Below are positions 1,886 to 34,608 of a stretch of 64,000 nt of DNA, piece after piece. The position numbers were made by a program, and so were the translations under genes. The notes under the pieces were generated by a model. It made no database searches, was not told the origin of the DNA, and saw nothing but the letters and a program-made list of their open reading frames with translations. The stretch lies in NCBI GenBank assembly GCA_021772895.1, contig JAJFLC010000018.1:1-64000 (forward strand), given 5' to 3'. The stretch is from Mariprofundaceae bacterium (GTDB taxonomy: Bacteria > Pseudomonadota > Zetaproteobacteria > Mariprofundales > Mariprofundaceae). Numbering within the stretch: position 1 is the stretch's first letter; the number at the start of each line of letters is the position of its first letter.

Positions 1886-3067
1886 ATGCAGCAACCCACT
1901 CTCAGCCATCAAACAATTCTGCATGCAGACATGGACGCCTTCTACGCTTCAGTTGAAGCGCGGGACAACCCCGAGCTGCACGATAAACCGCTCATTGTCG
2001 GGGGCAACGCCACGCAACGTGGCGTTGTTGCTGCTGCAAACTATATCGCCCGTACCTATGGCATTCACAGTGCAATGCCAACAAAAACAGCCTTAAAACT
2101 TTGCCCGCATGTGATGCTATTACCACCTCGGATTAAACACTATGCTGAAATAAGCCAGCACATTCGCGCTATCTTTGCACGATTTACGCCACTGATCGAA
2201 CCCCTCTCTCTGGATGAGGCCTTCCTGAACATCTCCGGCAGCCTGAAACTCTTCGGTTCAGCCGAACATATCGGAAGATCTATTCAGCAAGCGATCAAGA
2301 AGGAACTGAATCTCCCCGTCTCCATCGGCATTGCTCCAAACAAATTCATCGCAAAGATTGCCAGTGACATTGATAAACCCCATGGCTTTGTCTGCATTGC
2401 GGCGGAAGAAGTCCAATCTTTTCTTGATCCATTACCTATCGAACGTATATGGGGCGTTGGCCGTGTCACAACGCAACGATTCGCCAAGGCAAATCTCCAT
2501 ACCATGGGAGCAGTGCGCTGTCTGACAAAAGAAGCGGCCACAAGCCTGCTTGGTAAACATGGTGGACACTTTTGGAAACTGGCTCATGGCATCGATGAAC
2601 GGCCTGTCGTTCCCGAGCACAAAGCCAAATCCATTTCACACGAAACGACATTCAGCGTTGATATTAAAGACAGGGAGATATTATCTGCATGGCTCCTTGA
2701 TCTAACCGAACAGGTCATGCGACGTGTCCGGCAAAAGAAGTTCAAAGGGCGCACCATTCACCTAAAGCTCCGCTTTGATAATTTCACAACGATCACACGC
2801 TCACACACCCTGAAACATTCAACAGATGTCACGCAGGTCGTCTGGCAAGCTGTCCAGCAGATGTTTGAGAAACACCTGCCGCCCCAACAGTCCATTCGCT
2901 TGGTCGGCATGGGCATGGATGGGTTTGGGCATGTATCCGAAAAACAGGCCGAACTGTTTGAAGCTCCCGAACTTAAAAAACAACGTACCGTAGACCATAT
3001 CGTTGATCATATTCAGACACGTTTTGGCAGCAACATTCTTAAGCGTGGCAGCTCACACAAAAAATAG
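1886..3067 (+). CDS. dinB: DNA polymerase IV (Y-family translesion polymerase)
   Basis: A 393-residue Y-family polymerase that performs error-prone bypass synthesis on damaged templates. The N-terminus carries the palm motif ILHADMDAFYASVE (metal ligands Asp15/Asp17, steric gate Tyr20), then the fingers segment with VVAAANYIARTYGI, and the second catalytic motif SLDEAFL (Asp110, Glu111). The helix-hairpin-helix thumb (IWGVGRVT) and C-terminal little-finger domain complete the usual ~350-400 residue length. The ATG at 1886 is chosen because homologs begin about a dozen residues before the HADMD motif; the frame stays open further upstream but there it lies opposite the divergent small ORF. No LexA-box could be identified with confidence. 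Confidence 0.93.
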   Translation: MQQPTLSHQTILHADMDAFYASVEARDNPELHDKPLIVGGNATQRGVVAAANYIARTYGIHSAMPTKTALKLCPHVMLLPPRIKHYAEISQHIRAIFARFTPLIEPLSLDEAFLNISGSLKLFGSAEHIGRSIQQAIKKELNLPVSIGIAPNKFIAKIASDIDKPHGFVCIAAEEVQSFLDPLPIERIWGVGRVTTQRFAKANLHTMGAVRCLTKEAATSLLGKHGGHFWKLAHGIDERPVVPEHKAKSISHETTFSVDIKDREILSAWLLDLTEQVMRRVRQKKFKGRTIHLKLRFDNFTTITRSHTLKHSTDVTQVVWQAVQQMFEKHLPPQQSIRLVGMGMDGFGHVSEKQAELFEAPELKKQRTVDHIVDHIQTRFGSNILKRGSSHKK

Positions 3068-3102
3068 CCTGAACCTCGCAGATAAACATACCAACACATT
3101 TA

Positions 3103-3327
3103 TCACTCTTCTGCTTTATTTCGCGATTCGAATTTCAAACACTGCTGCTGTGAAGCAGAGTAAACCTCCAGGCAAGGTGTAATACGCGATTGAAAGCCAA
3201 AAGCACGGCATCCATACGGGAATTTTGGATTCCATGTCACATAATAATGTTTGCACCGTAGACATTCCGGCCGTTTTGAGTCCTGAGCGACATTGTTTCG
3301 GGCATCATCTTTTTTCTGCACGCTCAA
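3103..3327 (-). CDS. Conserved small cysteine-containing protein of unknown function
   Basis: 74 residues. The core CLRCKHYYVTWNPKFPYGCRAFGFQSR and a later PCLEVY...CLKFE give four to five cysteines spaced like a small metal- or cluster-binding fold. The C-xx-C-KHYYVT-x-P-x-FPYGCRAFGF pattern belongs to a short conserved proteobacterial family without known function. The gene starts inside the end of nnrS (its ATG overlaps the nnrS stop by 4 bp), so the two are translationally coupled. Co-transcription with a metal/nitric-oxide-related membrane protein hints at a redox or metal context, which is inference only. Confidence 0.7.
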   Translation of the reverse strand: MSVQKKDDARNNVAQDSKRPECLRCKHYYVTWNPKFPYGCRAFGFQSRITPCLEVYSASQQQCLKFESRNKAEE

Positions 3328-4574
3328 CCGTCTCGCCCATCAGCCCTTACCTGAACAAGATAAGGTGCGTAAATCCAGACAAACAGGCCAAAGGCCAATA
3401 TCCATCCCGTGCCAGCAATCAATAACCATGTATCTATCATCGCCGGAAACAGAAGTGGCACAAACACGCGCGCTAGCGCTGTCAGTCCCAACGTCACAAA
3501 CCCGATAACCATGGCTTGATGTGCAATCATAGCCCGCCCCGTATGCCCCAGCGATACACGAGCCATCATGCCCAACGTAAACATGCCAATGGCACCTACT
3601 GTCCATGCATGCAGCGCAATATTCCCGGGTATCATTTGCAAACCCGCCAAGCCCTGCAATATAAACCCCGTGACCAGCCAGCCATACGCCATGCATATCA
3701 CCCATAACATCGGAACCTTCCAAATTCGTAGATTACCCCAGCCAAACAATCTTATGCCATGCACCATTGCAGCAACAAAAGCTGCCAGCACCTGCCAAAG
3801 TGAATCCGGATCGACCAGCACAAGCAATAACCAGATTGCAATCAATGGCGTTGCTGCCAGTTCAAGCCATTTTATTTTAACGACACTTGCTCCCGATAGC
3901 CCCTTCTCAATAAAAAAAGGCATCACCCGTCCGCCAATCACCGACATCAACATAAGCACTGCGCCAACGCCTATAGCCAGCCCCGGCTCCATCGAAGCAA
4001 AAGAAAGTTCCAGCACTTGCGCATGAAATAAGCCATTGCCCACCGCCATGAGCATCAACAAAATCACCACTGAAACATTGCGTGACTGGCCTGATTTCAT
4101 AATTGGCCTGAGTATCACCAGCGCCAGTAAAGGAAGAAACACGATATCAACAGATACAACCAACCAACTAGGTAAATCTGGTATAACCAACACAAGTCGC
4201 CCAGCCAGCCATATCAAAAATAATAACAACAACCCTTTACCCGTTACCGTATCGATGCCTGTCCAATTCTTCACCGCAGTTAAAAGAAAACCTGCAATCA
4301 CGGCGACTGCATACCCAAAAAGCATTTCATGCCCATGCCAGAGCGATAAAGAGAGGTAAGCATCATGCCAATCATCCGCGAACAAATTAAAAATAAACAT
4401 GCCCATCAGCAATATAGAAAACAGACCCGCCGCAAGAAAAAACGGACGAAATCCAAGTCTGAAAAGTATAATTGTTCTTTTGCGTTCCTCAGGAACGTCA
4501 GGGTTGTGGATCGGAATTGTCATCATGCCAAGCCTATGTGAGAGATGAAAGACACGCCATCTACTGATAATCAT
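3324..4574 (-). CDS. nnrS: NnrS family multi-spanning membrane protein
   Basis: About 416 residues with around twelve hydrophobic segments. NnrS proteins are heme- and copper-containing membrane proteins linked to nitric-oxide stress tolerance. The family signature near the N-terminus is clear: LFRLGFRPFFLAAGLF, followed by WHGHEMLFGYA and the GFLLTAVKNWTG loop. Conserved histidines occur again in HAWTVGAIGMFTLGMMARVSLGHTGR. The start is uncertain: the ATG at 4574 has GGAGAG 14 bases upstream, while ATGs at 4526/4523 have only AGG but would give the usual ~20 residues before the first helix. It is divergent from rpfF, and no nitrite or NO reductase genes are near. Confidence 0.9.
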   Translation of the reverse strand: MIISRWRVFHLSHRLGMMTIPIHNPDVPEERKRTIILFRLGFRPFFLAAGLFSILLMGMFIFNLFADDWHDAYLSLSLWHGHEMLFGYAVAVIAGFLLTAVKNWTGIDTVTGKGLLLLFLIWLAGRLVLVIPDLPSWLVVSVDIVFLPLLALVILRPIMKSGQSRNVSVVILLMLMAVGNGLFHAQVLELSFASMEPGLAIGVGAVLMLMSVIGGRVMPFFIEKGLSGASVVKIKWLELAATPLIAIWLLLVLVDPDSLWQVLAAFVAAMVHGIRLFGWGNLRIWKVPMLWVICMAYGWLVTGFILQGLAGLQMIPGNIALHAWTVGAIGMFTLGMMARVSLGHTGRAMIAHQAMVIGFVTLGLTALARVFVPLLFPAMIDTWLLIAGTGWILAFGLFVWIYAPYLVQVRADGRDG

Positions 4575-4714
4575 TCATGGATAATTATCTCTCCAATATC
4601 CTGGCTGATAAAACGCACATCAAAACCACAACAAATAGTTGACCTCCTCAACAAAAAAGGTTCAACCTGATGTGGCAGACGGAGTCTGTAAAATTCAATG
4701 GAAGGAAGTGCACA

Positions 4715-5575
4715 ATGTATTACAAAACTAATTTAAAATTAAATTCCAACATCGAAGAGGACTTCACCTCACTCGAAATCCAGTATGATGAACAGCGTGA
4801 ACTGGCTTGGTACCGGATGAACGCACATCCAAGGCCATGTTTCACACCAACAGTTGTTGGAGAAATACAACAATGGTTTGATGAGATCATCAACGGAGAA
4901 AACCCTGCCCATGACAACCTTCGTTACATTGTCATGGCATCTCACGTACCTAATGTATTTTGTCTTGGAGGAGACTTGAACCTTTTCCTACAGCATATAC
5001 GCAACAACGATAGAGATGCGCTTCTGCACTATGATGAAGCATGTATTAAGGCTATGTTCCTTATTCATACAGATCTTGGAAAAGACCTGACAACAATTGC
5101 GTTAGTTCAAGGCGATGCTTTAGGCGGTGGCTTTGAAGGCGTATTAGCAAATGATGTGGTTGTTGCTGAGCGCAGCGCAAAAATGGGACTACCAGACATT
5201 TTGTTTAATCTGTTTCCCGGAGCGGGAGCGTACAGCTTCTTATCCAGGAAAGTTGGTATGATTGAAGCCGAACGCATGGTACTTGGCGGGAAACTCTACT
5301 CTGCCGAAGAGTTACATAAAATGGGGATTGTTGATGTACTTGCTGAAGATGGTGAGGGTGAAAGAGCGGTTTATGAATATATCAGAAAAGAAAACCGTAC
5401 TCGAAATGGGCGAAGGGCATTTAAAAAAACAAAACGCCTATACAATCCAGTCACCTTGGATGAACTCATGGCGTCAGCAAAAATATGGGCTGATGCTGCT
5501 TTTAATCTCGAAGAAAAAGACTTGCGTATGATGGAGCGGCTGGTTAAACGGCAATCTGTAAAATTTAACCAATAA
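4715..5575 (+). CDS. rpfF: RpfF-type DSF synthase (crotonase-fold acyl-ACP thioesterase/dehydratase)
   Basis: 286 residues, close to the 289 of Xanthomonas RpfF, which makes cis-2-unsaturated fatty acid signals (DSF) from 3-hydroxyacyl-ACP. Family-specific blocks are VFCLGGDLNLFLQHIRNNDR, IALVQGDALGGGFEG and MGLPDILFNLFPGAGAYSFL. The latter two define RpfF rather than ordinary enoyl-CoA hydratase. With ATG 4715 (GGAAGGAAG six bases upstream) the first catalytic acid falls at Glu141, as in RpfF, but the second (Glu161 in RpfF) is Asp161 here. An upstream in-frame ATG at 4670 lacks such a site. The gene converges on an RpfC-like kinase, the arrangement known in Xanthomonas. No RpfB or RpfG is in view. 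Confidence 0.85.
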   Translation: MYYKTNLKLNSNIEEDFTSLEIQYDEQRELAWYRMNAHPRPCFTPTVVGEIQQWFDEIINGENPAHDNLRYIVMASHVPNVFCLGGDLNLFLQHIRNNDRDALLHYDEACIKAMFLIHTDLGKDLTTIALVQGDALGGGFEGVLANDVVVAERSAKMGLPDILFNLFPGAGAYSFLSRKVGMIEAERMVLGGKLYSAEELHKMGIVDVLAEDGEGERAVYEYIRKENRTRNGRRAFKKTKRLYNPVTLDELMASAKIWADAAFNLEEKDLRMMERLVKRQSVKFNQ

Positions 5576-5590
5576 GTAAACCTATCCTTC

Positions 5591-5617
5591 GAGGGCCTTG
5601 CTATTAGCCGGGCCCTC
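5591..5617. terminator. Hairpin between convergent rpfF and rpfC
   Basis: Arms GAGGGCC (5591-5597) and GGCCCTC (5611-5617) with a 13-base loop sit between the two convergent stop codons. A perfect GC-rich stem at this position would serve both strands. The U-tract is weak on either side, so efficiency is uncertain. Confidence 0.55.
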
Positions 5618-5649
5618 ACAGGGTTTATTTAAAGCACCCTATCAACTCA

Positions 5650-7476
5650 TTATTTAGTATCTCGCCCAAAGTATTGCTCAAACTCATTACAACTTTTCTT
5701 AAACACACCTACTAACCTAGTAGAAGCTTTCACCATGCCTTCAGGTGTCAAATTGTGTTGTTCTTTTTCCAACTCATCACACATTTGAAAAATAGAAACG
5801 GCACCGACCGTCCCTGCGCCACCTTTAAGTGCATGGATAATATCCTGAAAAGCATTGATATCACCATCTGAAGCAATTTGTTCAAGTGCGTTTAACTCCC
5901 TCGATTCAAGGCGGGAATCCACGAGAACCAATGCCAAGTCTGTAGACCATTCTTCTGCGCGCACAGCTTCCACAAATTGTCGTGCTGTCATGCCCAGCAG
6001 TTCCCCTTCAACAATCGCAACATGAAATGGCCGGGCAACCTCATTGGCCTCAATAAGCTTTGAAAACAACCGCGCCACACTCGAAACGGCTTCCATCTCC
6101 TGCCCCCAACGCTTCAGCGGAATTTGCACCTTAGGCAAAAGATGCTCGCCCAAAAGAGTCAGCACCCGAACATCAGAAAAAGAAGTGGCCGCAATACTCT
6201 CTTTTGGAATATCCGGCTGACGTTCAAAAGGAAGTTCAAACCAGAATTCAGAACCTTTTCCTTCTTCACTTAACAAACCAATTTCTCCATTCATGAGTGT
6301 CACCAGTTCTTTGGAAATCGTTGTTCCCAAACCTGTACCACCATATTCTCGTGTCACTGACACATCAGCCTGAACAAAACTTTCAAAAATTTTCTTTTGA
6401 GCATCTTCTGAAAGGCCAATACCTGTATCGGTCACTCTAAAGCGAATCCAGACGTGCCCCTCCTTTTCGTGTACAAGCTCCAGCACAACTTCAACATACC
6501 CTTCATTGGTAAACTTCACCGCATTACTAAGTAAATTCATTAGTACCTGCCGAAGATGCAACTCATCACCATAAAGACGAAAAGGAACTACAGAATCAAC
6601 ATGAGAAATCAATTCAATACCCTTCTTTCTTGTCTGTGGGTGAAAGGTGTTAACCGTCGCAGCGATAAGCTCATGCAAATCAAACGGTTTCAATTCAGAA
6701 ACAAGTTTTCCCGCTTCAATTTTTGAAATATCAAGAATATCCTCAATCAATGCCAAAAGCGTTTGGCCTGAAGAGTGAATTAGGTTCGCATACTCTTGCT
6801 GCGTTTTATTTAGCTCAGTGGTCACAAGTAAATCGCTCATACCAATGATCCCATTAAGTGGCGTACGTAGCTCATGGCTCATATTGGCGACAAAATGTGA
6901 TTTTGCTTGATTGGCTTCTTCAGCCTTTGCAATAGCTACATGTAACTTCTTAATGAGATAGATCATAAACATCGGCACAACAAAAATAAGAACCAGGTTT
7001 CCTGCCGCCATATGTGAATGCTCCGTCCAAAAGGAATTGAACGTTATCACTACCCCAAACCCAACAAGCGCCAAAAATGTCGTTAAGTATGTGTAATTAA
7101 GCCCATGTCGAAAGGCATAACCCGTAATAATCCAAAGAAATAAGCCAACAAACAGAGTTCCTTCCTCTCCATCTGCGTAATATAAACATACCGTAGTCGT
7201 AGTAATATCACCAAGAGCCATCAAAATCTTTCGCACATCACTGCCGGATGAAAAAAGAAATATCCAGACAAGAAACAACAACGAAATTATAAAATAAGCC
7301 GCTGCCACCTTAAAAAGAAACAGGTTATCTGAAAATGAAAAGTAGACAAATATAGCCAATACTAAAAGCGAACGAGTCACAGATTGTGGCCATTCAGGAT
7401 TTAAGCGACACTTGACCAAGCCTGTTCTAAAGGCCTCTTGATCAAAGAGCGATTTCTTTTCTTTCCTTACTTCCAT
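5650..7476 (-). CDS. rpfC: RpfC-like membrane hybrid sensor histidine kinase with HPt
   Basis: About 608 residues. Five to six N-terminal membrane helices (~35-180) form the RpfC-type DSF input domain, followed by a HisKA domain with the phospho-acceptor in [12 protein letters not shown] (His ~201) and a HATPase domain with N (LLSNAVKF), G1 (DTGIGL) and G2 (GGTGLGT) boxes. The receiver-like segment after ~residue 425 is degenerate: where the phospho-Asp should end strand 3 it reads [13 protein letters not shown], with Glu and no Asp. The C-terminal HPt motif [14 protein letters not shown] keeps its His. The ATG at 7476 lacks a good ribosome site; a TTG at 7494 with GGAAG upstream is an alternative. 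It is convergent with rpfF. Confidence 0.82.
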
Positions 7477-7529
7477 TTCGAAATCGTAGCACAAGAAGCC
7501 AAAGGCTTCCTACACACGATGAAAAAAGG

Positions 7530-7841
7530 CTAATCAATATCGACTTGGATACGCCCTTGATTGATACAAACGGGAAAGGTTTCGACATCCTCATAAGCTG
7601 GCGGCGTGAGTGATTTACCATCCTTGATACAGAAGCGAGCGCCATGGCGAGGGCAGATGATCTGATCGCCTTCACATTGGCCGGAGGCAAGCTCACCGCC
7701 ATCATGGGTGCAAACATCTTCGATGGCATAAAATTCACCATCAAGATTAAAAACGGCAATCTCAGCCACATCTGTGGCGATAATTTTTCGCAGTCCCGGT
7801 TTTAGCTCATCTTCGCCACACACATCAATCCACTCGGCCAT
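7530..7841 (-). CDS. Rieske-type [2Fe-2S] ferredoxin, last gene of the suf operon
   Basis: 103 residues, a free-standing Rieske domain of the NirD/bacterial Rieske ferredoxin type with no membrane anchor. Both ligand boxes are present: Cys-Thr-His in EDVCTHDGGEL and Cys-x-x-His in IICPRHGARF, so cluster binding should be intact. The ATG at 7841 has GAGAGGG upstream and lies 13 bp after the sufT stop. Its place at the end of the suf cluster suggests a role as small electron carrier for, or client of, Fe-S assembly. The exact partner is unknown. Confidence 0.88.
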   Translation of the reverse strand: MAEWIDVCGEDELKPGLRKIIATDVAEIAVFNLDGEFYAIEDVCTHDGGELASGQCEGDQIICPRHGARFCIKDGKSLTPPAYEDVETFPVCINQGRIQVDID

Positions 7842-7854
7842 TAGAACACCCTCT

Positions 7855-8421
7855 CTAAAACATCCCAAGCTGTAACTTGGCTTCATCACTCATCATTGCA
7901 CGATCCCATGGCGGCTCAAAGACCAGATCAACATGTACATCCGAAACATTTGTCACACTGAGGATTTTCTGCCGAACATCATCAACAATAAATGGGCCCA
8001 TACCACAACCGGGTGCAGTCAAAGTCATCACCACATCCACATGATTACCACCCTCATCGGTGTCTACCACATGGCAATCATAGACCAGACCCAAGTCTAC
8101 AATATTGACCGGTATCTCCGGGTCATAGCAGGTTTTTAAAACGTTCCAGACCTCATCTTCATTCACAGGGCCACTTGCAGGCTTGGAATCTGAGGATGTG
8201 GAATCAGCCACTTCAGTCGTTTTTTCTCCGTCCAGCCCTAAGGCATCCGCATCTTTACCTTCTATCCGAGCCAAATTCCCATTCACGGATACGGTATAAC
8301 TTCCGCCCAACTCCTGAGTAATCATCACCTGTGCATTTTCCGGGATCATCACGGGTGTGCCCAGTGGAATTAGCACTGCATCCACATCACGGGTTACTGT
8401 AATCATTGCACCTGAAGTCAT
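7855..8421 (-). CDS. sufT: SufT-like Fe-S assembly factor (MIP18/DUF59 domain)
   Basis: 188 residues. The C-terminal half is a MIP18/DUF59 domain (VWNVLKTCYDPEIPVNIVDL, then MTLTAPGCGMGPFIVDDVRQ), with the conserved reactive Cys in the TAPGCGMG loop. The N-terminal extension with two small beta segments (VLIPLGTPVMIPENAQVMIT) is the SufT-specific part. SufT proteins help deliver clusters to client enzymes when iron-sulfur demand is high. The ATG overlaps the sufU stop by 4 bp (ATGA), indicating coupling. A charged, low-complexity linker (~residues 65-85) joins the two halves. Confidence 0.88.
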   Translation of the reverse strand: MTSGAMITVTRDVDAVLIPLGTPVMIPENAQVMITQELGGSYTVSVNGNLARIEGKDADALGLDGEKTTEVADSTSSDSKPASGPVNEDEVWNVLKTCYDPEIPVNIVDLGLVYDCHVVDTDEGGNHVDVVMTLTAPGCGMGPFIVDDVRQKILSVTNVSDVHVDLVFEPPWDRAMMSDEAKLQLGMF

Positions 8422-8870
8422 TCTGTTTTTGCCGCCTTATCACTGTGTTCAATCGCCGATTTGAGTGTGTGCCAGCAAAGCGTGGCGCATTTGATCCGCG
8501 AGGGGAATTCTTTCACACCTGCCAATACAGCCAGTTTTCCCAACGTTTCTTCATCCGGTTTTTCAGACATATCAGCCGTTGCCATCTCATGAAATGCTTC
8601 AAACAAGTGTTCAAACTCACGAACCGATTTGCCTTTCAATTTCTCTGTCATCAATGAAGCCGAGGCTGTGGAAATCGAACAGCCCTGCCCTTCAAACTTC
8701 ACCTCTTTGATCATGTCATCATCAATCTGCAAATAGACATGTAACTGATCACCGCACAGCGGATTGTAACCTTCCGCATCATGGCTGCATGGTTCCAGCT
8801 TACCAAAATTACGCGGGCTTTTGGTATGGTCGATGATGACCTGCTGATATAAATCACCCAAGTCAAACAT
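8418..8870 (-). CDS. sufU: SufU/IscU-like sulfur relay or scaffold protein
   Basis: 150 residues. The family's three cysteines are present: GYNPLCGDQL, GQGCSISTASASLM and RIKCATLCWHTL, together with the conserved Asp in CGDQ. The insert between the second and third Cys and the ARxxC-like RIKCATLCW ending are typical of SufU rather than IscU. SufU accepts the persulfide sulfur from SufS. ATG 8870 is preferred (AAGGA about 8 bases upstream); two codons earlier is only a TTG. The gene is separated from sufS by a 103-bp inverted-repeat element. Confidence 0.9.
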   Translation of the reverse strand: MFDLGDLYQQVIIDHTKSPRNFGKLEPCSHDAEGYNPLCGDQLHVYLQIDDDMIKEVKFEGQGCSISTASASLMTEKLKGKSVREFEHLFEAFHEMATADMSEKPDEETLGKLAVLAGVKEFPSRIKCATLCWHTLKSAIEHSDKAAKTE

Positions 8871-8887
8871 ACGCAAATCCTTTTTTT

Positions 8888-8990
8888 ACCACAAAGGCAC
8901 AGAGACATGACCCTTGGAAACCTTCGACGGAAGACAAAGAAAAGGAAAAGCCAATATACTCTACTCTTTGTGCCTCTGTGCCTTTGTGGT
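8888..8990. repeat. 103-bp element with perfect 17-bp inverted ends between sufU and sufS
   Basis: ACCACAAAGGCACAGAG at 8888-8904 is exactly mirrored by CTCTGTGCCTTTGTGGT at 8974-8990. The interior is non-coding. It is a MITE-like or hairpin repeat; its left end matches the left end of the element at 12368 in 15 of 17 positions. In the suf mRNA it would form a long stem between two genes. Confidence 0.85.
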
Positions 8991-8999
8991 TCAAATTCT

Positions 9000-10226
9000 T
9001 CATGCAAACAAATCCCTAGCTTTGATAAGTGCGATGAACAGTGCATCAACTTCAGCTTCCGTATTATAAATAGAGAATGATGCACGTGCCGTAGCAGGAA
9101 CTTTATAAAATTGCATGACTGGCATGGCGCAATGATGCCCGGCACGAATCGCGACACCTTCGCGATCCAGAATCGTACCCAAATCATGCGGATGCACGCC
9201 ATCCATCACAAAAGAAAGGACACAGGCCTTATCCTTCGCCGTACCAATCTGACGCAAACCATCAAAAGCCACTGCTTTTTGCGTTGCGTAGTCCAATAAT
9301 ACTTTCTCACGCTCAGCAATCGCATCAAGCCCGATAGCATTGATATATTCAATCGCCTTAGCAAAACCAATCACACCCGCAATATTGGGCGTGCCAGCTT
9401 CAAACTTATGTGGCAAATCATTGTATTGTGTTTTTTCAAAAGTCACGGTCAGGATCATATCCCCACCACCCTGATAAGGCGGCATCGCATCCAATACGGT
9501 TTCTTTGGCAATCAACACACCCACGCCTGTAGGACCATACATTTTGTGTGCCGATGTAGCATAAAAATCGACATCCAATGCCTGCACATCCACAGCCACA
9601 TGCGCTGCCGCCTGCGCGCCATCCACCAATACCCTGGCTCCCACAGCATGAGCCTGTTTAATGATTGTCCGGATCGGATTAATCGTGCCCAACGCATTGG
9701 ACATATGAACCACACCGACCAGTTTTGTACGTTCAGATAGCAATGTCTCAAAAGCATGCATATCCATTTCGCCGGCTTCGTTCATCGGCACCACTTTTAA
9801 TGTCGCCTCAACCCGCTCACACAACATCTGCCAGGGCACAATGTTGGAGTGGTGTTCCATATGGGTAATGAGTATTTCATCACCCTTACCAACATTCGTA
9901 TCGCCCCAGCTTGATGCCACCAGATTGATACTTTCGGTAGTGCCCCGGGTAAAAATCACTTCTTTTTTGGATCGTGCATTAAAAAACAGTCGGATGGTCT
10001 CACGCGCCGCTTCATAATCTGCTGTAGCCCGTTCGGAAAGTGTATGCACCCCACGATGGATGTTTGCATTGTCTTTTTCATAATAATGCCGAACAGCATC
10101 AATCACACAGTGTGGTTTTTGTGTGGTTGCCGCGTTATCCAGATAAACCAGCGGCTTACCGTAAATTTCCTGATGCAAAATCGGAAAATCACTCCGAATC
10201 GCTTCAGTATCGCAAGGCATTCCCAT
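9000..10226 (-). CDS. sufS: SufS cysteine desulfurase (PLP-dependent)
   Basis: 408 residues, class V aminotransferase fold. It removes sulfur from cysteine, leaving alanine and an enzyme persulfide. Visible are the N-terminal YLDNAATTQKP, the PLP-binding TRGTTESINLVA and HMEHHSNIVPW, the Schiff-base lysine in ATSAHKMYGPTG (Lys228), and the active-site cysteine in IRAGHHCAMPV (Cys366), the short-loop arrangement of SufS. The ATG at 10226 overlaps the sufD stop (TGATG). A GTG one codon earlier and an ATG at 10220 are alternatives. Confidence 0.95.
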   Translation of the reverse strand: MGMPCDTEAIRSDFPILHQEIYGKPLVYLDNAATTQKPHCVIDAVRHYYEKDNANIHRGVHTLSERATADYEAARETIRLFFNARSKKEVIFTRGTTESINLVASSWGDTNVGKGDEILITHMEHHSNIVPWQMLCERVEATLKVVPMNEAGEMDMHAFETLLSERTKLVGVVHMSNALGTINPIRTIIKQAHAVGARVLVDGAQAAAHVAVDVQALDVDFYATSAHKMYGPTGVGVLIAKETVLDAMPPYQGGGDMILTVTFEKTQYNDLPHKFEAGTPNIAGVIGFAKAIEYINAIGLDAIAEREKVLLDYATQKAVAFDGLRQIGTAKDKACVLSFVMDGVHPHDLGTILDREGVAIRAGHHCAMPVMQFYKVPATARASFSIYNTEAEVDALFIALIKARDLFA

Positions 10227-11602
10227 CACCCCAAAAGCCCATCAAGCTCCGCACCGTGCGGCAGCTTCTCAAATGCAATGCGTTCCAGATATTTCCGCAC
10301 CTGTGGCACCTTAATCGCTGTCAGCACTTCATCGGCAAAAGCAAACATCAACACATTGCGTGCTTCATCTTCACTCAATCCACGCGAACGCAAATAAAAC
10401 AACTGTTTCATATCCAGTTGGCCCACCGTTGCACCATGTGCGCACTTCACATCATCCGCATAAATTTCCAGATCAGGCTTGGTATCAATTTCAGCTTGAT
10501 CTGAAAGTAAAAGATTGGCATTCGATTGAGCCGAATCCGTTTGATCGGCATTTTCATGAACAACAACCTTGCCATTAAAAACTGCCCGGGCACGACCATC
10601 AATCACGCCTTTATAAGATTCACGGCTTCGACAATTGGGCCGGACATGATCAATACGCGTGTGATGATCCACATGCTGCCTGCCGCCTACCAAATAGAGC
10701 CCGTTAAGTGCGCATTCCGCTCCCTCACCGTTCATTTCAACATGAATATCTCTCCGTGAAAGTGCTGCCCCAAACGCAACCGAGTGTGAGTGATAGTAGC
10801 TGTCCCGGTGCTGATGCACTCGGATCGAGCCAATATTCACTTCCTTACTGCCTGATTGCTGTAGTTTATAGTGCTCAAGCCTGCCGCCTGCATGCAACTC
10901 CACATCAGTCCCTGCATTGATAAAAGCTGTGCTTTCGCCAATTGAAGCATAATGCTCAATCACCGTGACCTGACTACACTCGCCTGCAACAATAAGGTTT
11001 TTAATGTGGTAAGAAGCACTATCCCCGGAAGCTGATAGAAAAAGGCAATGTAAAGGCTGCTCAACCACAACCCCATCCGGAATTTCCAGGTAAACACCAT
11101 CGCTCATCATGGCGTTGTTTAATGCTGCAAAAGCACCGGACACATGCTGATCGTGAAGATAGGCCTCAATAACATCCGGTTCTTTTGCAAACATGTCGGC
11201 CATGCTTTCGATACGTACGCCTGCTGGAATGTTTTTCAGCGAGGATAACGCCTGTGAAACCTTCCCATCGATCATCACAACCCGGAGACTATCCAAATCG
11301 TCAAAAGAGAAAGCGGTAAGCATTTCTTCAGAAACATTCAAAGATGGCATTTCAACTGAGTCAGCAAGCAACCTGTCCAGATACTTTTTAACATCCGTAT
11401 ATTTCCACGCCTCATGCCGTGTGTTTGGCATGCCCTGACTGACAACCTGATCCATGGCGCTCTTACGCAAAACACGCACCCATGATTCATGCGCCCCCGG
11501 CAATGACTTTTGAGTTTCGACAAAGCGATCCTGAAGTTGTTCGGTGAACGTTGCAGATTCGCTCATACGGTCATGCACGTGATCGTTCATCTGATCATTC
11601 AT
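10226..11602 (-). CDS. sufD: SufD, Fe-S scaffold subunit
   Basis: 458 residues. Shares the right-handed beta-helix C-terminal half of the SufB/SufD family (DSYYHSHSVAFGAALSRRD, VDHHTRIDHVRPNCRSRESY, DDVKCAHGATVGQLD, LFYLRSRGLSEDEARNVLM). The His in CAHGATVG matches the SufD residue implicated in cluster assembly with SufB. It functions in the SufBC2D complex, where SufB-SufD form the nascent cluster. The ATG at 11602 overlaps the sufC stop (ATGA) and is preceded by AAGAGG. Later in-frame ATGs (11590, 11566) would trim a Met/Asp/His-rich tail. Confidence 0.93.
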   Translation of the reverse strand: MNDQMNDHVHDRMSESATFTEQLQDRFVETQKSLPGAHESWVRVLRKSAMDQVVSQGMPNTRHEAWKYTDVKKYLDRLLADSVEMPSLNVSEEMLTAFSFDDLDSLRVVMIDGKVSQALSSLKNIPAGVRIESMADMFAKEPDVIEAYLHDQHVSGAFAALNNAMMSDGVYLEIPDGVVVEQPLHCLFLSASGDSASYHIKNLIVAGECSQVTVIEHYASIGESTAFINAGTDVELHAGGRLEHYKLQQSGSKEVNIGSIRVHQHRDSYYHSHSVAFGAALSRRDIHVEMNGEGAECALNGLYLVGGRQHVDHHTRIDHVRPNCRSRESYKGVIDGRARAVFNGKVVVHENADQTDSAQSNANLLLSDQAEIDTKPDLEIYADDVKCAHGATVGQLDMKQLFYLRSRGLSEDEARNVLMFAFADEVLTAIKVPQVRKYLERIAFEKLPHGAELDGLLG

Positions 11603-12351
11603 GCAGTGGCCTCTTGCAGAACCCAATCATAACCACGTTTTTCAAGTTCCAGTGCCAGCTCTTTACCGCCACTTTTCAGAATCTGACCATCTGCCAGTAC
11701 ATGAACCACATCCGGCTCAATATAATCGAGAAGTCTTTGATAATGCGTAACCAGAACCACTGCACGATCCGGACTGCGGAGCTTGTTGACCCCTCCAGCC
11801 ACAATGCGTAAGGCATCAATATCCAAACCTGAATCTGTTTCATCCAGCAGGGCAAGATCCGGTTCCAGCACTGCCATTTGAAAAATCTCATTGCGTTTTT
11901 TCTCACCACCGGAAAAACCTTCATTCACGGAACGGCTCAAAAAGGAATGATCAAGCTCAACAAGATCCGCCTTCTTTTTCACAATTTGCATAAAATCGAT
12001 TGCGTCTAACTCGTCCAGACCCATATGTTTACGTTTTGCATTCAAGCCTGCTTTTAAAAGATAGGTATTATTCACACCTGGAATTTCCACCGGATATTGA
12101 AATGCAAGGAACACACCTTCCCATGCACGTTCTTCGGGGCTCATCTCAAGCAGCTCCTTACCCTTATAGATCACAGAACCCTGAGTTATCTCATAACCAT
12201 CCCGACCCGCAATCACATTAGACAATGTGCTTTTTCCAGAACCATTGGGCCCCATAATCGCGTGAATTTCGCCAGCCTTCACATCAAGATCAATCCCCTT
12301 AAGGATCTCTTTGCCAGCCACTGAGGCGTACAGGTTTTCAATCTTTAACAT
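11599..12351 (-). CDS. sufC: SufC ATPase of the Fe-S assembly complex
   Basis: 250 residues, soluble ABC-type ATPase. Walker A is MGPNGSGKSTLSN, the Q-loop AFQYPVEIPG, the ABC signature GFSGGEKKRNEI, Walker B LALLDETDSGLD and the switch His in VLVTHYQRLL. The FQYPVEIPGV and SGGEKKRNEI variants are diagnostic of SufC rather than a transporter. ATP hydrolysis drives rearrangement of SufB-SufD during cluster formation. A 455-bp gap carrying a repeat-bounded insertion separates it from sufB, while it is tightly coupled to sufD. Confidence 0.95.
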   Translation of the reverse strand: MLKIENLYASVAGKEILKGIDLDVKAGEIHAIMGPNGSGKSTLSNVIAGRDGYEITQGSVIYKGKELLEMSPEERAWEGVFLAFQYPVEIPGVNNTYLLKAGLNAKRKHMGLDELDAIDFMQIVKKKADLVELDHSFLSRSVNEGFSGGEKKRNEIFQMAVLEPDLALLDETDSGLDIDALRIVAGGVNKLRSPDRAVVLVTHYQRLLDYIEPDVVHVLADGQILKSGGKELALELEKRGYDWVLQEATA

Positions 12352-12367
12352 GTTTCAAATCCTTTTA

Positions 12368-12797
12368 ACCACAAAGTCACGGAGACACAAAGTTTTCATA
12401 ATGCAACCCGTTTAATGCCATCTTTTATTCTTGCTGTATTGAAATTGATTAATAACCCCAAACGACTATCTGCAAGCTTCAGATAAGTGAGTAGTTGTGC
12501 TTTATGAACATTATTCAGTTGTTCAACAGCTTTTATCTCTAGAATAATCTTTTCTTCAACCCAAATATCGAGACGAAATCCGGTATCCAACTTTATTCCA
12601 TCATACATAATTGGTAATGACACTTGCCTCTGGAAAGTAACTCCCCGTTTGTTCAGTTCATGACACAAACAAACTTCGTAAACTGACTCAAGCAGCCCAG
12701 CACCCAACTCTGTATGAACACAATAAGCTGCATCGACAATGACTCGTGACAGCTCATTGATTTCATCACTGATCGCTTCTCTTCGTGTCTTCGTGGT
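12368..12797. mobile_element. 430-bp cassette with imperfect inverted ends carrying a GxxExxY gene, inserted between sufB and sufC
   Basis: The left end ACCACAAAGTCACGGAG (12368-12384, continuing ACACAAAG to 12392) and right end CTTCGTGTCTTCGTGGT (12781-12797) are imperfect inverted repeats. Nearly the whole interval is filled by a GxxExxY-family frame. Such accacgaagacacgaag-type repeats are often seen beside GxxExxY genes. Treating the unit as a mobile or formerly mobile cassette is inference; no transposase is present and no target duplication was established. Confidence 0.55.
12396..12707 (-). CDS. GxxExxY-family protein, probably with a damaged 5' end
   Basis: The family motif GAGLLESVYEVCLCHEL gives it its name (G-x-x-E-x-x-Y), followed by a PD-(D/E)XK-like core: LDTGFRLDIWVEEKIILEIKAV and the QLLTYLKLADSRLGLLINFN strand-helix. 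The family is widespread in environmental bacteria with unknown function. The TTG at 12707 is only the first possible start codon. The frame continues upstream with family-like residues (EINELSRVIVDAAYCVHTEL) to a stop at 12798-12800, without an ATG, GTG or TTG. The ATG at 12801 (MNHEDTKRSDQ, stop at 12766-12768) is in another frame. A frameshift near 12770-12795 is the simplest reading, so the gene may be a pseudogene. Confidence 0.7.
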   Translation of the reverse strand: MGAGLLESVYEVCLCHELNKRGVTFQRQVSLPIMYDGIKLDTGFRLDIWVEEKIILEIKAVEQLNNVHKAQLLTYLKLADSRLGLLINFNTARIKDGIKRVAL

Positions 12798-12806
12798 TCA
12801 TATTCT

Positions 12807-14264
12807 TTATCCCACGGCCCCTTCCAAACTCACTTCCATGAGTCGATTCGCTTCAACCGCAAATTCCATAGGCAATTCATTAAACACTTCTTTACAAAAA
12901 CCATTCACAATCAATGAAACAGCATCCTCTTCAGAGATACCGCGTTGCTGGCAATAAAATAACTGATCTTCGCCAATTTTTGATGTGGTAGCTTCATGCT
13001 CCACAATGGCAGTCGAATTTTTCACCTCAACATAAGGAAACGTATGTGCGCCGCACGTTTTACCTAGCAACAACGAATCACATTGTGTGTAGTTACGCGC
13101 ACCTTCTGCATCTTTACCGATACGCACCAGCCCACGATAAGATTGCTGGCCGTGTCCTGCTGAGATTCCTTTGGCAATAATGGTACTTGTTGTATTTCTG
13201 CCAAGGTGAATCATCTTTGTGCCCGTATCGGCCTGCTGATAATTACTGGTCAGCGCTACCGAATAAAACTCACCCACTGAATCATCACCTTTCAGCACAC
13301 AGCTCGGATATTTCCACGTAATCGCACTGCCTGTTTCAACCTGAGTCCATGAAATTTTGGCCCGATCGCCCCTGCATTCACCACGTTTGGTCACAAAATT
13401 ATAGATTCCACCCACGCCATTTTCATCACCCGGATACCAGTTCTGAACCGTAGAATATTTAATCTGAGCATCTTCAAGTGCCACAAGCTCGACAACAGCA
13501 GCATGTAGCTGATTTTCATCACGCATTGGAGCCGTACAGCCTTCAAGATAGCTCACATATGATCCCTCTTCCGCAATGATCAAAGTGCGCTCAAACTGAC
13601 CGGTATTCATCGCATTGATGCGAAAATAGGTTGAAAGTTCCATCGGGCTGCGTACCCCCTTCGGGATAAAGACAAACGAACCATCCGTGAACACCGCTGA
13701 ATTCAGTGCCGCAAAAAAGTTATCGCCAGTTGGCACAACCGAACCAAGGTACTGCTGTACCAATTCAGGATAATCACGCACAGCCTCTGAAATCGGGCAA
13801 AAAATTACACCTGCCTCTTTGAGTTTTCCCTTAAATGTCGTTGCAACCGAAACAGAATCAAACACGGCATCAACGGCCACATTTTTTACGCCGGCCAAAA
13901 ATGCCTGTTCACGCAGCGGAATGCCCAGCTTGTCATACGTCTCTAAAAGCTTTGGATCAACCTCATCAAGGCTCTTTGGCGCGTCATCATCAGATTTAGG
14001 TGCCGAATAGTAAGAGATTGATTGATAATCAATCGCCTCATGATGCACATTGGCCCACTGCGGCTCAGCCATTGTCTGCCAATGGCGAAATGCCTCCAAT
14101 CGCCAATTCAACAACCATTCAGGTTCATCTTTTTTGGCGGATATGGCACGAACCACATCCTCATCAAGACCTGGTGGTAACGTATCCGAATCAATATCAG
14201 TGATAAATCCCGCTTCATACTCCCGAGATTTAAGCTGCTCAGTCAGCTCTTCATTTGTTGCCAT
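12807..14264 (-). CDS. sufB: SufB, Fe-S scaffold subunit
   Basis: 485 residues, the usual SufB length. Signature blocks include [80 protein letters not shown] and [20 protein letters not shown] with [20 protein letters not shown]. The Cys in KTCGAHTFP and the Glu of the [12 protein letters not shown] strand correspond to residues used in cluster assembly with SufD. The ATG overlaps the sufR stop by one base (TAATG). It is first structural gene of the operon and forms SufBC2D with the downstream genes. Confidence 0.95.
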
Positions 14265-14749
14265 TATGCAGCCTCATAATTTTCTTTCGAAGATGAATCA
14301 ATCGAACTAATGGATAGAACTTTCTTCAAAGAAAAAACCGGCATAAAATCCTTTTCAGTCATATCCTTCAATGAGATATTATCGAGTGCGCCACGCACAG
14401 CTTCGTTAATCCGCTTCCAGTTATTCTGGGTTGAACAGAACGGCAACTGCTCACACTCACCATCATCGAGATTACATTCGGTCAGTGCGATATTTCCTTC
14501 AAAGCAATCAATGATTTCTCGCACAGATACTTCACCGGCCGGTCTCGCCAGACGATAACCACCTTTTGCACCACGAATGGACTCCAACAAACCAGCACCC
14601 AGAAGGGCCTGTAAAACTTTGCTCACAGTCGGAGAAGGAATATGTGTCGCGTTGGAAAGATCATTGGATGCAAACAAGCAAGCTTCATCCGCCGCCATAT
14701 GTGTTAACAACAGTATCCCATAGTCCGTCAATTTGGTCAGCCTGAGCAT
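14264..14749 (-). CDS. sufR: Rrf2-family SUF regulator
   Basis: 161 residues. An N-terminal winged helix ([19 protein letters not shown], then [20 protein letters not shown] and [20 protein letters not shown]) identifies the Rrf2/IscR family. Three cysteines, [18 protein letters not shown], are in the cluster-ligand loop, so it probably senses Fe-S status and represses the operon when clusters are plentiful. ATG 14749 has GAGAAAG upstream. It heads the suf operon. An inverted repeat overlapping its promoter (14781-14805) is a likely autoregulatory site. Confidence 0.9.
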
Positions 14750-14780
14750 ATCTTTCTCACAACCATGCACTCCCGAAATA

Positions 14781-15230: not shown

Positions 15231-16496
15231 TTAGTATACGTACTCGACCTGTAGAGTCGTAGAGTTCAACTTAGAGCTAGTCACGCCAGCAGTCTTAAAC
15301 TTAATTGCGTTATACTCAAGATCCAAAGTCAGGTTCTGAGCAACGTCATACCACACACCAGCAATGAAGTTGTTGTACTTAACGTCGTTTACACCAACTG
15401 CAGTACCGGAAGTCTTAGCATAATCATAACCCAAACGCACACCCGCTTGACCGAATGCAATATTCACATATGGATTAAAACCAGTAACCTTTGTCTTCAA
15501 GCCTGTAAGTGTTGTTGTAGTTTCAGCCTTAAGAACGACTGGCATGTAGAAACCAATCGATGCATCACCCATGTCACCCTGAATCTGAAAGTCCAGACCG
15601 AATTCTTTGCGGTTATTCTTAGGAGCACCAGTCTGCTTATGGTTCGCTGCATCAACACTTGCAAACCAACCACCAGCAACAACATCCAAACCACCTAGTT
15701 CGCCAGTATAAGCAGCACGCAGATATGGGCTCAGTGTCATGTCGATACCAGCGTTACCAGCAGCAGTACCACCAACAGGGGTAATACCAGCAACTGCGAA
15801 GTATACAGAATCAGCCAAATGACCATATACACCAAGACCACTCACACCAGTATGCATTACTGTTGAACGCAGTGATTGAGCACGCGTCTGAATACCACGA
15901 ACGTTACGGGAAACTGCATTTGATGGATCATTAAAGACCGAAGGTGCACCCAAAGCATCAGTTGTACCAAATGCTAGAGCAACGATACCTGCATCCAAAT
16001 CAAATACATAAGCAAGCTTAGCACCCAACAGGCCAGTAGCGCCTTCAATCACACTCCATTCGTTGAAGATACCAGTGTGCTCACCTAGACGACCACCAAA
16101 CAGCAGAGCTGCTTCATCAGGAAACTGAAGAGCAACAGCAGAACTAGCAGGACCAGTACCAATTGGACCACCCTTTGCCGTTACTACGCCAGCAGCATTT
16201 TTAGTAGAACCATGAGCAAAACGAGCCTTCATTAGGAAAGCCGCGTTGAATACTGCAGGTAGAGACAGATGCTCATCTTCGATTAGAGCCTGTTCGCCCA
16301 TGTCGCGGAAAGCATTCATACGGAAGTTACGACCAAAAGCGGTCAGACGTGGAATTGCCTGGAAATGGCAGTTCAAACATGCAGCGCCAGTCTGACGTGC
16401 AAATGCTGGTACAGCTTCAGAAGTAGTTGGAGCAACTGCAACAGCAGAAACAGCAACAACAGCGAAAGCTACAGCAGAAAAAAGCATTTTTTTCAT
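15231..16496 (-). CDS. cyc2: Cyc2-like outer-membrane monoheme cytochrome-porin
   Basis: 421 residues. A signal peptide (~1-28, ending TTSEA) is followed by VPAFARQTGAACLNCHFQAI, a single CxxCH heme site (Cys40, Cys43, His44), then LTAFGRNFRMNAF and EDEHLSLPAVFNAAFL. The remainder is alternating, aromatic-rich beta-strand sequence ending in VEYVY with a terminal aromatic, as expected of an outer-membrane barrel. A short heme domain fused to a ~16-strand porin is the architecture of Cyc2, the Fe(II) oxidase of iron-oxidising bacteria. The FARQTG-CxxCHF-P-L-FGR-F pattern matches that family. Related porin-cytochromes of non-iron-oxidisers cannot be excluded. It is monocistronic, with ribosome site GAGGATAAC and its own terminator. 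Confidence 0.75.
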   Translation of the reverse strand: MKKMLFSAVAFAVVAVSAVAVAPTTSEAVPAFARQTGAACLNCHFQAIPRLTAFGRNFRMNAFRDMGEQALIEDEHLSLPAVFNAAFLMKARFAHGSTKNAAGVVTAKGGPIGTGPASSAVALQFPDEAALLFGGRLGEHTGIFNEWSVIEGATGLLGAKLAYVFDLDAGIVALAFGTTDALGAPSVFNDPSNAVSRNVRGIQTRAQSLRSTVMHTGVSGLGVYGHLADSVYFAVAGITPVGGTAAGNAGIDMTLSPYLRAAYTGELGGLDVVAGGWFASVDAANHKQTGAPKNNRKEFGLDFQIQGDMGDASIGFYMPVVLKAETTTTLTGLKTKVTGFNPYVNIAFGQAGVRLGYDYAKTSGTAVGVNDVKYNNFIAGVWYDVAQNLTLDLEYNAIKFKTAGVTSSKLNSTTLQVEYVY

Positions 16497-32571: not shown

Positions 32572-33465
32572 TCAGGATTTACGTTTTGCTCTTGGATGTG
32601 CTGAATCATACACTTCAGTCAATTTGGCAATATCAAGATGGGTATAACGCTCAGTAGTCCCAAGTGATGAATGCCCAAGCAACTCCTGAATAGCTCGCAA
32701 ATCAACGCCACCGGCAAGCAAGTGCGTTGCAAAAGAGTGACGCAAACGATGCGGTGTAACCGAAATATCCGCGCCCGTTTCCAGCGCACGTTTTTTAACC
32801 ATCCGCTGCACACTTCTGGCCGTTAACCGACCTCCACGTTGATTCAGAAAAAGCGCCTGTTCCAACCCATCACCAATCAATGTAATTCCGTTCCGCTCTT
32901 CCAGATAATCCTGAAGCAGGTTTATAGCACCTTCAGGCATCGGAACCACCCGCTCTTTTTTACCCTTACCAAACACCCGCAACTCAGCAGCTTCCAGACT
33001 GACATCATGAAGATTCAAACCCACAGCTTCTGAAACACGCAGACCACATCCATACATCACAGAAAATATCGCCAGATCACGCGCTTCAGATGATGAATCC
33101 GTTGCATGCATCATCTGGTTGGTCTGTTCAGGGGGAAGTGTTTGAGGCAAACGTTTCGGCTGTTTTGGAGGCCGAATGCCAGCCGCCACGTTTTTTTCAC
33201 ACCAGCCAGCCTGCATCGATATATCAAGAAAACCACGCAATGCCGAAAGCCTTCGTGCCAAGGTAACTGGCGAAAGACCCTCTGCATAACCCTGAACCAT
33301 CCAGTTCTGCACATGTTCTCTCAAAATATCCCGGACAGGGATATCACCGCAATGTTCAATAAAGCGGGTTAAATCACGTTTGTAATTTGAAGTTGTATGT
33401 TCCGATGCCAGCCGAACTTCGGAAAGTTGTTTAAGATAGCGGGCTAATGCCTCACTTAGCTGCAT
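32572..33465 (-). CDS. xerC: XerC site-specific tyrosine recombinase
   Basis: 297 residues, right length for the chromosome-dimer resolvase subunit acting at dif. All catalytic residues are in place: Arg143 (YGCGLRVSEA), Lys167 (GKGKKERVVP), His239/Arg242 (TPHRLRHSFATHLL), His265 (LLGHSSLGTTERYTH) and Tyr274. The SAM-like N-terminal domain and the PRAKRKS tail favour XerC over XerD. It follows the DUF484-GGDEF gene by 6 bp; DUF484 next to xerC is a known conserved pair. Confidence 0.93.
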   Translation of the reverse strand: MQLSEALARYLKQLSEVRLASEHTTSNYKRDLTRFIEHCGDIPVRDILREHVQNWMVQGYAEGLSPVTLARRLSALRGFLDISMQAGWCEKNVAAGIRPPKQPKRLPQTLPPEQTNQMMHATDSSSEARDLAIFSVMYGCGLRVSEAVGLNLHDVSLEAAELRVFGKGKKERVVPMPEGAINLLQDYLEERNGITLIGDGLEQALFLNQRGGRLTARSVQRMVKKRALETGADISVTPHRLRHSFATHLLAGGVDLRAIQELLGHSSLGTTERYTHLDIAKLTEVYDSAHPRAKRKS

Positions 33466-33471
33466 TTGAGG

Positions 33472-34608
33472 CTATTTAGCAGCGCCCTTATTTTCTTCAG
33501 AAACCTCGAAGCGGGAACCACCCAATGCCTTGGCCACATACATCGCCTGATCTGCACTTCCAATCAACTGCTTCACCGGCATATCCCGATCTTCAGCCGA
33601 ATATGCAATACCCATGCTAATCGAAGCCTTTTCATCCTGAACAGAAAGCTCACCACAGCCCCGAACAATGCGCCCGGCAATCTCACATGCCTTGGCTTCT
33701 GAACAACCGGGAAGTAAAAGCACAAATTCATCACCTCCCATTCGGATCAATGGGTCTTTTTCACGTACAAACTGCTGAGCAGTTGATGCAATAGCGGTAA
33801 GTAAATCATCCCCGGCTTCATGACCCAAACGATCATTCACTGCTTTGAAACCATCCACATCAAAATAAAGACATGCAACCTGTGAACCTTTGCCAAACCA
33901 TTGAGAAAGAGGCTGATGACTGTGTGGTTGCAAAAAGCGGCGGTTATGACTTCCGGTTAAACTGTCCGTAATAGAAATACGTGCCAGACGCTCTCTTGCG
34001 ATCGCGTTTTCAAGACTTAAACCCACCACTTGTGCCAAATGTTGTAAAAAATCGACACTTTGATCCGGAGAAAAACGCTCCGCTTCGACTGAACCCATAC
34101 CCAATATCCCAAAAGGTTTCTCGGGATTCCCCAGCACCAGCAAGGCCATGGAAGCAAGGTGTTCATCCTGCTTTTCCAGCCAGGCAAAACCCTTCTCCTG
34201 ACTTAAAGAGATCAGGCAAACATGTTTGCCTAACAATCCCATATTGGCAATTTCACCCTTCTCCAACCAGACAAGATCACGTTCTGACAAACCTTCCAAC
34301 TGACAGTTACCCATAAAACTTGAGCGATCAAACCAAAAACGAACCATATCAAGGGAAAACCCTGTGCGAAGGCCACGCAGGAGTGTAAAACAGAGGTCTT
34401 CGGGATCGGTGGCGGAAAGCACTTTGGATTCAAGCTCAAACATCCGTGAAAACAGACGTTCGTTTTCACGCAAGCGTTTCATGACATCGGCAACATATTG
34501 TTTCAACTCATGATTTTCATCGGCCAACTGTTGCATGCGCCGGTCAGTAAGGTTTTTGACTTCGCCCCTCTCTTTGACTCCCTTAGCGCCTTCCTTTTCT
34601 CCACTCAT
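33472..34608 (-). CDS. DUF484-like sensor fused to GGDEF diguanylate cyclase
   Basis: 378 residues. The N-terminal coiled coil (QLADENHELKQYVADVMKRL then RENERLFSRM) and GAF-like core have the DUF484 pattern. From ~residue 205 there is a GGDEF domain: ITDSLTGSHNRRFL, YFDVDGFKAVNDRLGHEAGD, and an intact MGGDEFVLLLPG active site (291-295), preceded by the RxxD inhibitory site REKD exactly five residues before GGDEF. It should make c-di-GMP with product inhibition. In many proteobacteria DUF484 alone precedes xerC; here it is fused to a cyclase. The ATG overlaps the L,D-transpeptidase stop by 4 bp. Confidence 0.88.
   Translation of the reverse strand: MSGEKEGAKGVKERGEVKNLTDRRMQQLADENHELKQYVADVMKRLRENERLFSRMFELESKVLSATDPEDLCFTLLRGLRTGFSLDMVRFWFDRSSFMGNCQLEGLSERDLVWLEKGEIANMGLLGKHVCLISLSQEKGFAWLEKQDEHLASMALLVLGNPEKPFGILGMGSVEAERFSPDQSVDFLQHLAQVVGLSLENAIARERLARISITDSLTGSHNRRFLQPHSHQPLSQWFGKGSQVACLYFDVDGFKAVNDRLGHEAGDDLLTAIASTAQQFVREKDPLIRMGGDEFVLLLPGCSEAKACEIAGRIVRGCGELSVQDEKASISMGIAYSAEDRDMPVKQLIGSADQAMYVAKALGGSRFEVSEENKGAAK

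Follow-up and report, generated by a model that had tools for sequence, protein, structure and literature searches.

In Xanthomonas, the receiver of the sensor kinase RpfC blocks the synthase RpfF, loss of rpfC leads to DSF overproduction, and the phosphorelay runs through the receiver and HPt (PMC9864630, PMC4517397, PMC5391125). Glu141 and Glu161 of RpfF are catalytic, and Met170 possibly contacts the precursor (PMC9864630). DSF signalling has also been studied experimentally in the iron oxidiser Leptospirillum (PMC8357829). A literature search joining Mariprofundus and DSF gave no match. The locus described here lies in a 64,000-nucleotide stretch of DNA (the window) within the 2.45-Mb genome of a Mariprofundaceae bacterium. 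We read it, with a probability of roughly 0.68, as a zetaproteobacterial DSF locus in which RpfF makes up a matched module with the RpfC input domain, the kinase core is inherited separately, and RpfC is left without its receiver and with half an HPt.

A sequence-only reading of this DNA had proposed a convergent RpfF and RpfC pair in a zetaproteobacterial host. Both open reading frames are present and their identity is backed by sequence and layout; the two genes converge on a common strong hairpin (Table 1). The host assignment was borne out as well, and the Cyc2-like gene on which it had leaned (15231-16496) encodes 421 aa with one CxxCH near the start followed by barrel-like sequence, which fits Cyc2. 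Since the same Suf-linked locus recurs in many relatives, the pairing is not due to chance; the DSF-type locus is real, and its identity and layout are ordinary. The longest crotonase frame runs from 4670 to 5575 (+, 301 aa), or 286 aa from the ATG at 4715, and the longest kinase frame from 5650 to 7494 (-, 614 aa, TTG start), or 608 aa from the ATG at 7476. The two ATG starts give products closer in length to those of relatives than the longest frames do. Elsewhere in the window, positions 1053-1460 hold a low-complexity tandem repeat with several frames open (e.g. LAE or PPV repeats).

Table 1. Features of the rpfF/rpfC locus and its surroundings (positions in the window).
Feature	Position	Strand	Remarks
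NnrS-family gene	3324..4574	-	Adjoins rpfF in several relatives also
rpfF-like crotonase (DSF-synthase family)	4715..5575	+	AGGAAG upstream of 4715 ATG; length as in relatives
Glu156 (301-aa frame), equivalent to catalytic Glu141 of RpfF	5135..5137	+	GGGFE, conserved
Asp176, at position of RpfF catalytic Glu161	5195..5197	+	GLPD for GLPE
Ala185, at position of RpfF Met170	5222..5224	+	Substrate-pocket residue (pocket role: PMC9864630)
Hairpin between convergent genes	5591..5617		Likely shared terminator; -24.8 kcal/mol, z -3.64
rpfC-like membrane sensor kinase	5650..7476	-	Internal in-frame deletion; 608 aa, compared with ~820-870 aa in relatives
HPt remnant, phosphoacceptor His554	5668..5874	-	HALKGGAG; first helices missing
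Deletion junction	5875..5889	-	~233 codons missing relative to same-genus kinases
Degenerate (pseudo-) receiver domain	5920..6177	-	End shortened; alignment with relatives
HisKA and HATPase_c core	6220..6948	-	Phosphoacceptor His207 in SHELRTPL
RpfC-type membrane input domain	6949..7437	-	~Residues 20-182, with 5-6 membrane helices predicted; clusters with D-type lineages rather than own genus
Rieske-type protein and Suf/SufT/IscU cluster	7530..14770	-	Conserved neighbourhood, served as vertical control

The pair occurs in 33 of the 74 genomes of the family; all four sister-family genomes lack it, and most of the loci viewed have it beside the same Suf genes. GTDB species contain at least 573 related loci, and these species include Thiobacillus, Acidithiobacillus ferrivorans, Leptospirillum and Methylophaga; most of 80 of them show the order rpfF, convergent rpfC, rpfG. 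The suggestion that the present pair newly extends DSF signalling to lithotrophs therefore falls: DSF loci that include rpfG are common among Thiobacillus, Acidithiobacillus and Leptospirillum relatives, and the Leptospirillum work is already published.

The kinase is recognizable as RpfC at its membrane end. Over residues 1-199 it matches the input domains of four rpfF-linked kinases with domain E-values of 3.6e-13 to 1.2e-10; these kinases, each with a convergent rpfF, come from Xanthomonadaceae and related genomes, the Xanthomonadaceae label resting on an RpfF that is 82% identical to the Xanthomonas enzyme of known structure. The membrane domain thus proved to match the RpfC input domain, as the first reading of the pair had assumed. 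AlphaFold models five to six membrane helices and the core, with low confidence at the start of the HPt remnant, and a fold search with the model matched generic kinase cores, such as those of GacS and RetS, and nothing more specific. In two of these genomes, both Xanthomonadaceae, 910-aa RpfC-like reading frames (L212, L213) carry the input module twice in tandem, which fits the 10-segment RpfC type reported for Stenotrophomonas (PMC5928129).

Beyond the core, a large part of the protein is missing. Full-length relatives contain an input domain, HisKA, HATPase, a degenerate receiver, a true receiver and an HPt. Pfam finds HisKA, HATPase_c and a truncated Hpt match in the window kinase (profile positions 13-71 of 84, with the His kept and the first helices missing or of low confidence), and no receiver domain. 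Where same-genus kinases have 254-255 residues it has 22, in frame, as seen in one assembly; the deletion takes the rest of the pseudo-receiver, the whole true receiver and the start of the HPt. The receiver with its phosphoacceptor Asp, present in full-length relatives that have rpfF, is gone, and the best solved match of the same-genus true receiver is the RpfF-binding receiver of RpfC itself (3m6m chain D). A search of the genome for the missing receiver-HPt unit at another place found generic receivers and no similar unit.

The usual output partner is missing as well. RpfG had been noted as lacking from the window; none adjoins the pair and no RpfG orthologue was found in the genome. Among the HD-GYP proteins of the genome, the two that could be placed (L001, L002) fall outside the rpfC-linked RpfG clade in a tree, and the third (L003) has no receiver match. 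One of these, L001, was ruled out as RpfG by the tree, and its best NCBIfam match is of NosR type, below cut-off. Among the loci viewed, a linked RpfG occurs within the family in genome G066 alone, which suggests that rpfG was lost after the lineage of G066 split off; this locus (L080, 7986-11903) is the sole zetaproteobacterial one seen with rpfG still beside rpfC. The same cannot be said of RpfB. Its absence had likewise been proposed, and no rpfB adjoins the pair, but the genome has five AMP-binding enzymes and, away from the pair, a FadD/FadJ/FadI-like operon with a FadD-like ligase, so the genome cannot be said to lack an RpfB-like acyl-CoA ligase activity. That operon lies next to a gene for a 945-aa hybrid kinase (L083, 3634-11926, on contig C19 of the same genome) and might serve to turn over or sense fatty acids. 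Of the two outputs that had been put forward, neither the GGDEF protein at 33472 nor the regulator at 26202 gained or lost support here, and in that role both remain speculation. The GGDEF protein (32575-34608) has an N-terminal DUF484, and its gene directly adjoins one for a XerC/D-type recombinase.

These losses can be read as decay. After the loss of rpfG, RpfC would be a relay without output and its gene would drift, the deletion being a step towards its loss, and rpfF might follow. We consider this possible, and doubtful rather than improbable. The failure to find an RpfG orthologue agrees with it, as do the absence of the pair from 41 of the 74 family genomes and the damage seen in rpfC-like genes of other family members in which rpfF was not detected. 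Against it, the reading frame is kept across the deletion, the H, N, G1, F and G2 boxes of the kinase and the HPt His are intact, and RpfF is undamaged, since both ends of its sequence are present and Glu141 is conserved. Two RpfC-like genes from other family genomes may be described here: one (L074, genome G055, 7592-9955) lacks the first part of the receiver and the other (L191, genome G064, 2213-3673) has an internal stop, with no rpfF detected in either.

The crotonase scores 371.7 bits on NF006452, above the cut-off of 177, and 241.9 bits on the NCBIfam RpfF model NF053515, below the cut-off of 550; the next best score, on ordinary hydratase models, is 83.5 bits. Its best four PDB matches are all RpfF-type (7zq7, 3m6m, 6dgn and 5fus, E 1e-49 to 1e-58), at ~36-42% identity. 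The next protein has an E-value of 4e-16, and ordinary hydratases lie more than 30 orders of magnitude behind. When its possible grouping with non-RpfF hydratases was checked, RpfF-type enzymes were closest. The active site departs from the standard one at two of the three positions in Table 1. Asp at the Glu161 position is found in 15 of 109 RpfF-family sequences, all zetaproteobacterial; every one of the 15 lacks Met170 (Ala or Ile instead), and all 94 Glu-type sequences keep Met. Among these 109 sequences, the Asp/Ala variant is a coupled change specific to Zetaproteobacteria.

With Asp in place of Glu161 the enzyme may be less active or yield a different product. In pairwise comparisons of Asp-type genes, dN is 0.03-0.06 and dS 0.3-1.2, and these enzymes are therefore under purifying selection; with the change common to whole clades, decay of the enzyme was ruled out. 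The best tree has three changes to Asp, but constraining the Asp/Ala type to one origin is not rejected (p_AU 0.127); the three changes are therefore a best-tree count and we do not claim convergence. The crotonase might instead be an enzyme of a related kind, an acyl-ACP hydratase or thioesterase, that makes something other than DSF, and two observations fit that idea: both altered positions are tied to DSF synthesis (PMC9864630), and the score falls short of the RpfF-specific cut-off. We think it unlikely. The gene is always tightly linked to rpfC, Glu141 is kept, the nearest solved structures are RpfF, and the standard residues are present in Glu-type relatives at this locus.

We then compared how the parts of the locus vary. 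The C-terminus of the window RpfC groups with its own genus, and placing it with the Asp-type (D) clade is rejected (p_AU 6e-74), as it is for the core (4e-6). The input domain falls with Asp-type lineages, with support of 100/99 for a set of seven, and grouping it with its own genus clade is rejected (p_AU 1e-61). Judged by these topologies, the window RpfC is a chimera of a D-type input domain and a core of its own genus type. Across 30 zetaproteobacterial pairs, RpfF distances track input-domain distances when the core is held constant (partial r 0.54, p 0.0003), and the input domain hardly tracks its own core given RpfF (partial r 0.06, p 0.14), the partial Mantel tests used being liberal. 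Nearest neighbours agree between RpfF and input domain in 17 of 30 cases, and between input domain and core in 5 of 30. With SufT as the vertical control, over 22 genomes, the corresponding figures are 0.49 and 0.16; beyond Zetaproteobacteria, the residual correlation is 0.62. The coupling of RpfF to the input domain is not exclusive, because with the input domain held constant RpfF follows the core too (partial r 0.38); this weaker tracking is expected if RpfF binds the receiver.

The same pattern is visible in single pairs of genomes. Between G032 and G033, Suf proteins are 93-95% identical and the core and C-terminus 90%, compared with 43% for the input domain and 60% for RpfF, and the DNA boundaries are sharp at both sides. 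Thiobacillus clades show the same two-island pattern. That the synthase and the input domain of the sensor diversify as matched modules is well supported at the sequence level; the synthase and the receiving end change together as if lineages used different dialects. The alternative is that lineages exchange or convert the kinase core, and that the covariation has nothing to do with coevolution of signal and receptor. Core and C-terminus do travel as a block (partial r 0.87), and recombination at the rpf locus is evidently frequent. However, the Suf genes at the flanks are conserved to the same degree as the core in both G032/G033 and G026/G028, and RpfF and the input domain are therefore the odd ones out; the two moreover agree though they are not adjacent. 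Core exchange is an improbable account of the covariation. Genome G026 (L008/L039, L188, L189) carries three rpfC-like genes together with two complete rpfF genes and a partial one, which differ in type; either one cell has several dialects or the bin (5% contamination) mixes strains.

Misassembly, or a rare variant among strains, is a very unlikely explanation of the deletion. Short similar stretches (GCACTTGA-like) flank the junction and the species is represented by one genome, but most assemblers would not collapse shared stretches of such length, and the genome, in 24 contigs, is 98.5% complete and 0.04% contaminated.

Returning to the matched module with a separately inherited core, we propose the following scheme. 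Going by its family, RpfF with the Asp/Ala active site would make a cis-2-unsaturated fatty acid, which the RpfC membrane domain would sense. Synthase and input domain would form a signal/receptor module whose halves diversify together, joined to a kinase core with an inheritance of its own. The in-frame deletion, in removing the receiver and half of the HPt, is predicted to leave RpfF no longer held in check by RpfC and RpfC with no internal His-Asp-His run. Such a cell would make signal constitutively and be deaf to it through RpfC, unless the kinase passes phosphate to a separate receiver. DSF sensing has been kept in this lineage though RpfG, its usual c-di-GMP partner, is missing, and therefore it would have another output, or the signal would serve only neighbours.

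More tentatively, and as something close to an even bet, DSF signalling in Zetaproteobacteria and Thiobacillus may consist of polymorphic dialects. Synthase and input domain, split by a conserved core, would be co-selected and exchanged as a matched pair, the Asp161/Ala170 enzymes would mark one signal class, and the window strain would be a sender without relay through RpfC. If the covariation reflects signal specificity, it offers a sequence-level test of how fatty-acid quorum sensing diverges and of which residues determine the signal. The bacteria concerned build iron mats, in which attachment is important. The receiver-less sensor would be a natural separation-of-function mutant, for which freed signal production and lost relay are predicted.

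Compared with RpfF/RpfC/RpfG of Xanthomonas, the locus has an RpfF-family synthase, a convergent RpfC, a homologous membrane input domain, HisKA and HATPase. It differs in having no RpfG orthologue, no receiver and half an HPt, and in carrying Asp for Glu161 and Ala for Met170; its full-length relatives have an extra pseudo-receiver before the true one, which the Xanthomonadaceae loci do not. In the agr groups of Staphylococcus, the signal-making parts and the receptor input parts also vary together while the kinase core is conserved. There the signal is a peptide and the variable region is contiguous; here a fatty-acid synthase and an input domain vary, with the conserved core between them on the DNA. 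The rpfF-rpfC-rpfG locus of Leptospirillum is likewise a DSF locus in an iron-oxidising lithotroph, and RpfC of L. ferriphilum is also altered, being split with the receiver-HPt part encoded separately (PMC8357829). Unlike the window, Leptospirillum keeps rpfG and the receiver-HPt part in a same-direction operon, and the Leptospirillum relatives sampled keep Glu161 and Met170. The closest precedent for the matched association is rpf-1/rpf-2 of Stenotrophomonas maltophilia, in which RpfF variants are in fixed association with RpfC variants, the latter differing mainly at the N-terminal sensor side (PMC4517397, PMC5928129). In that species there are two variants, with 10 or 5 membrane segments (PMC4517397, PMC5928129); here there are many across genera, with core and flanks conserved and a coupled change in the RpfF active site.
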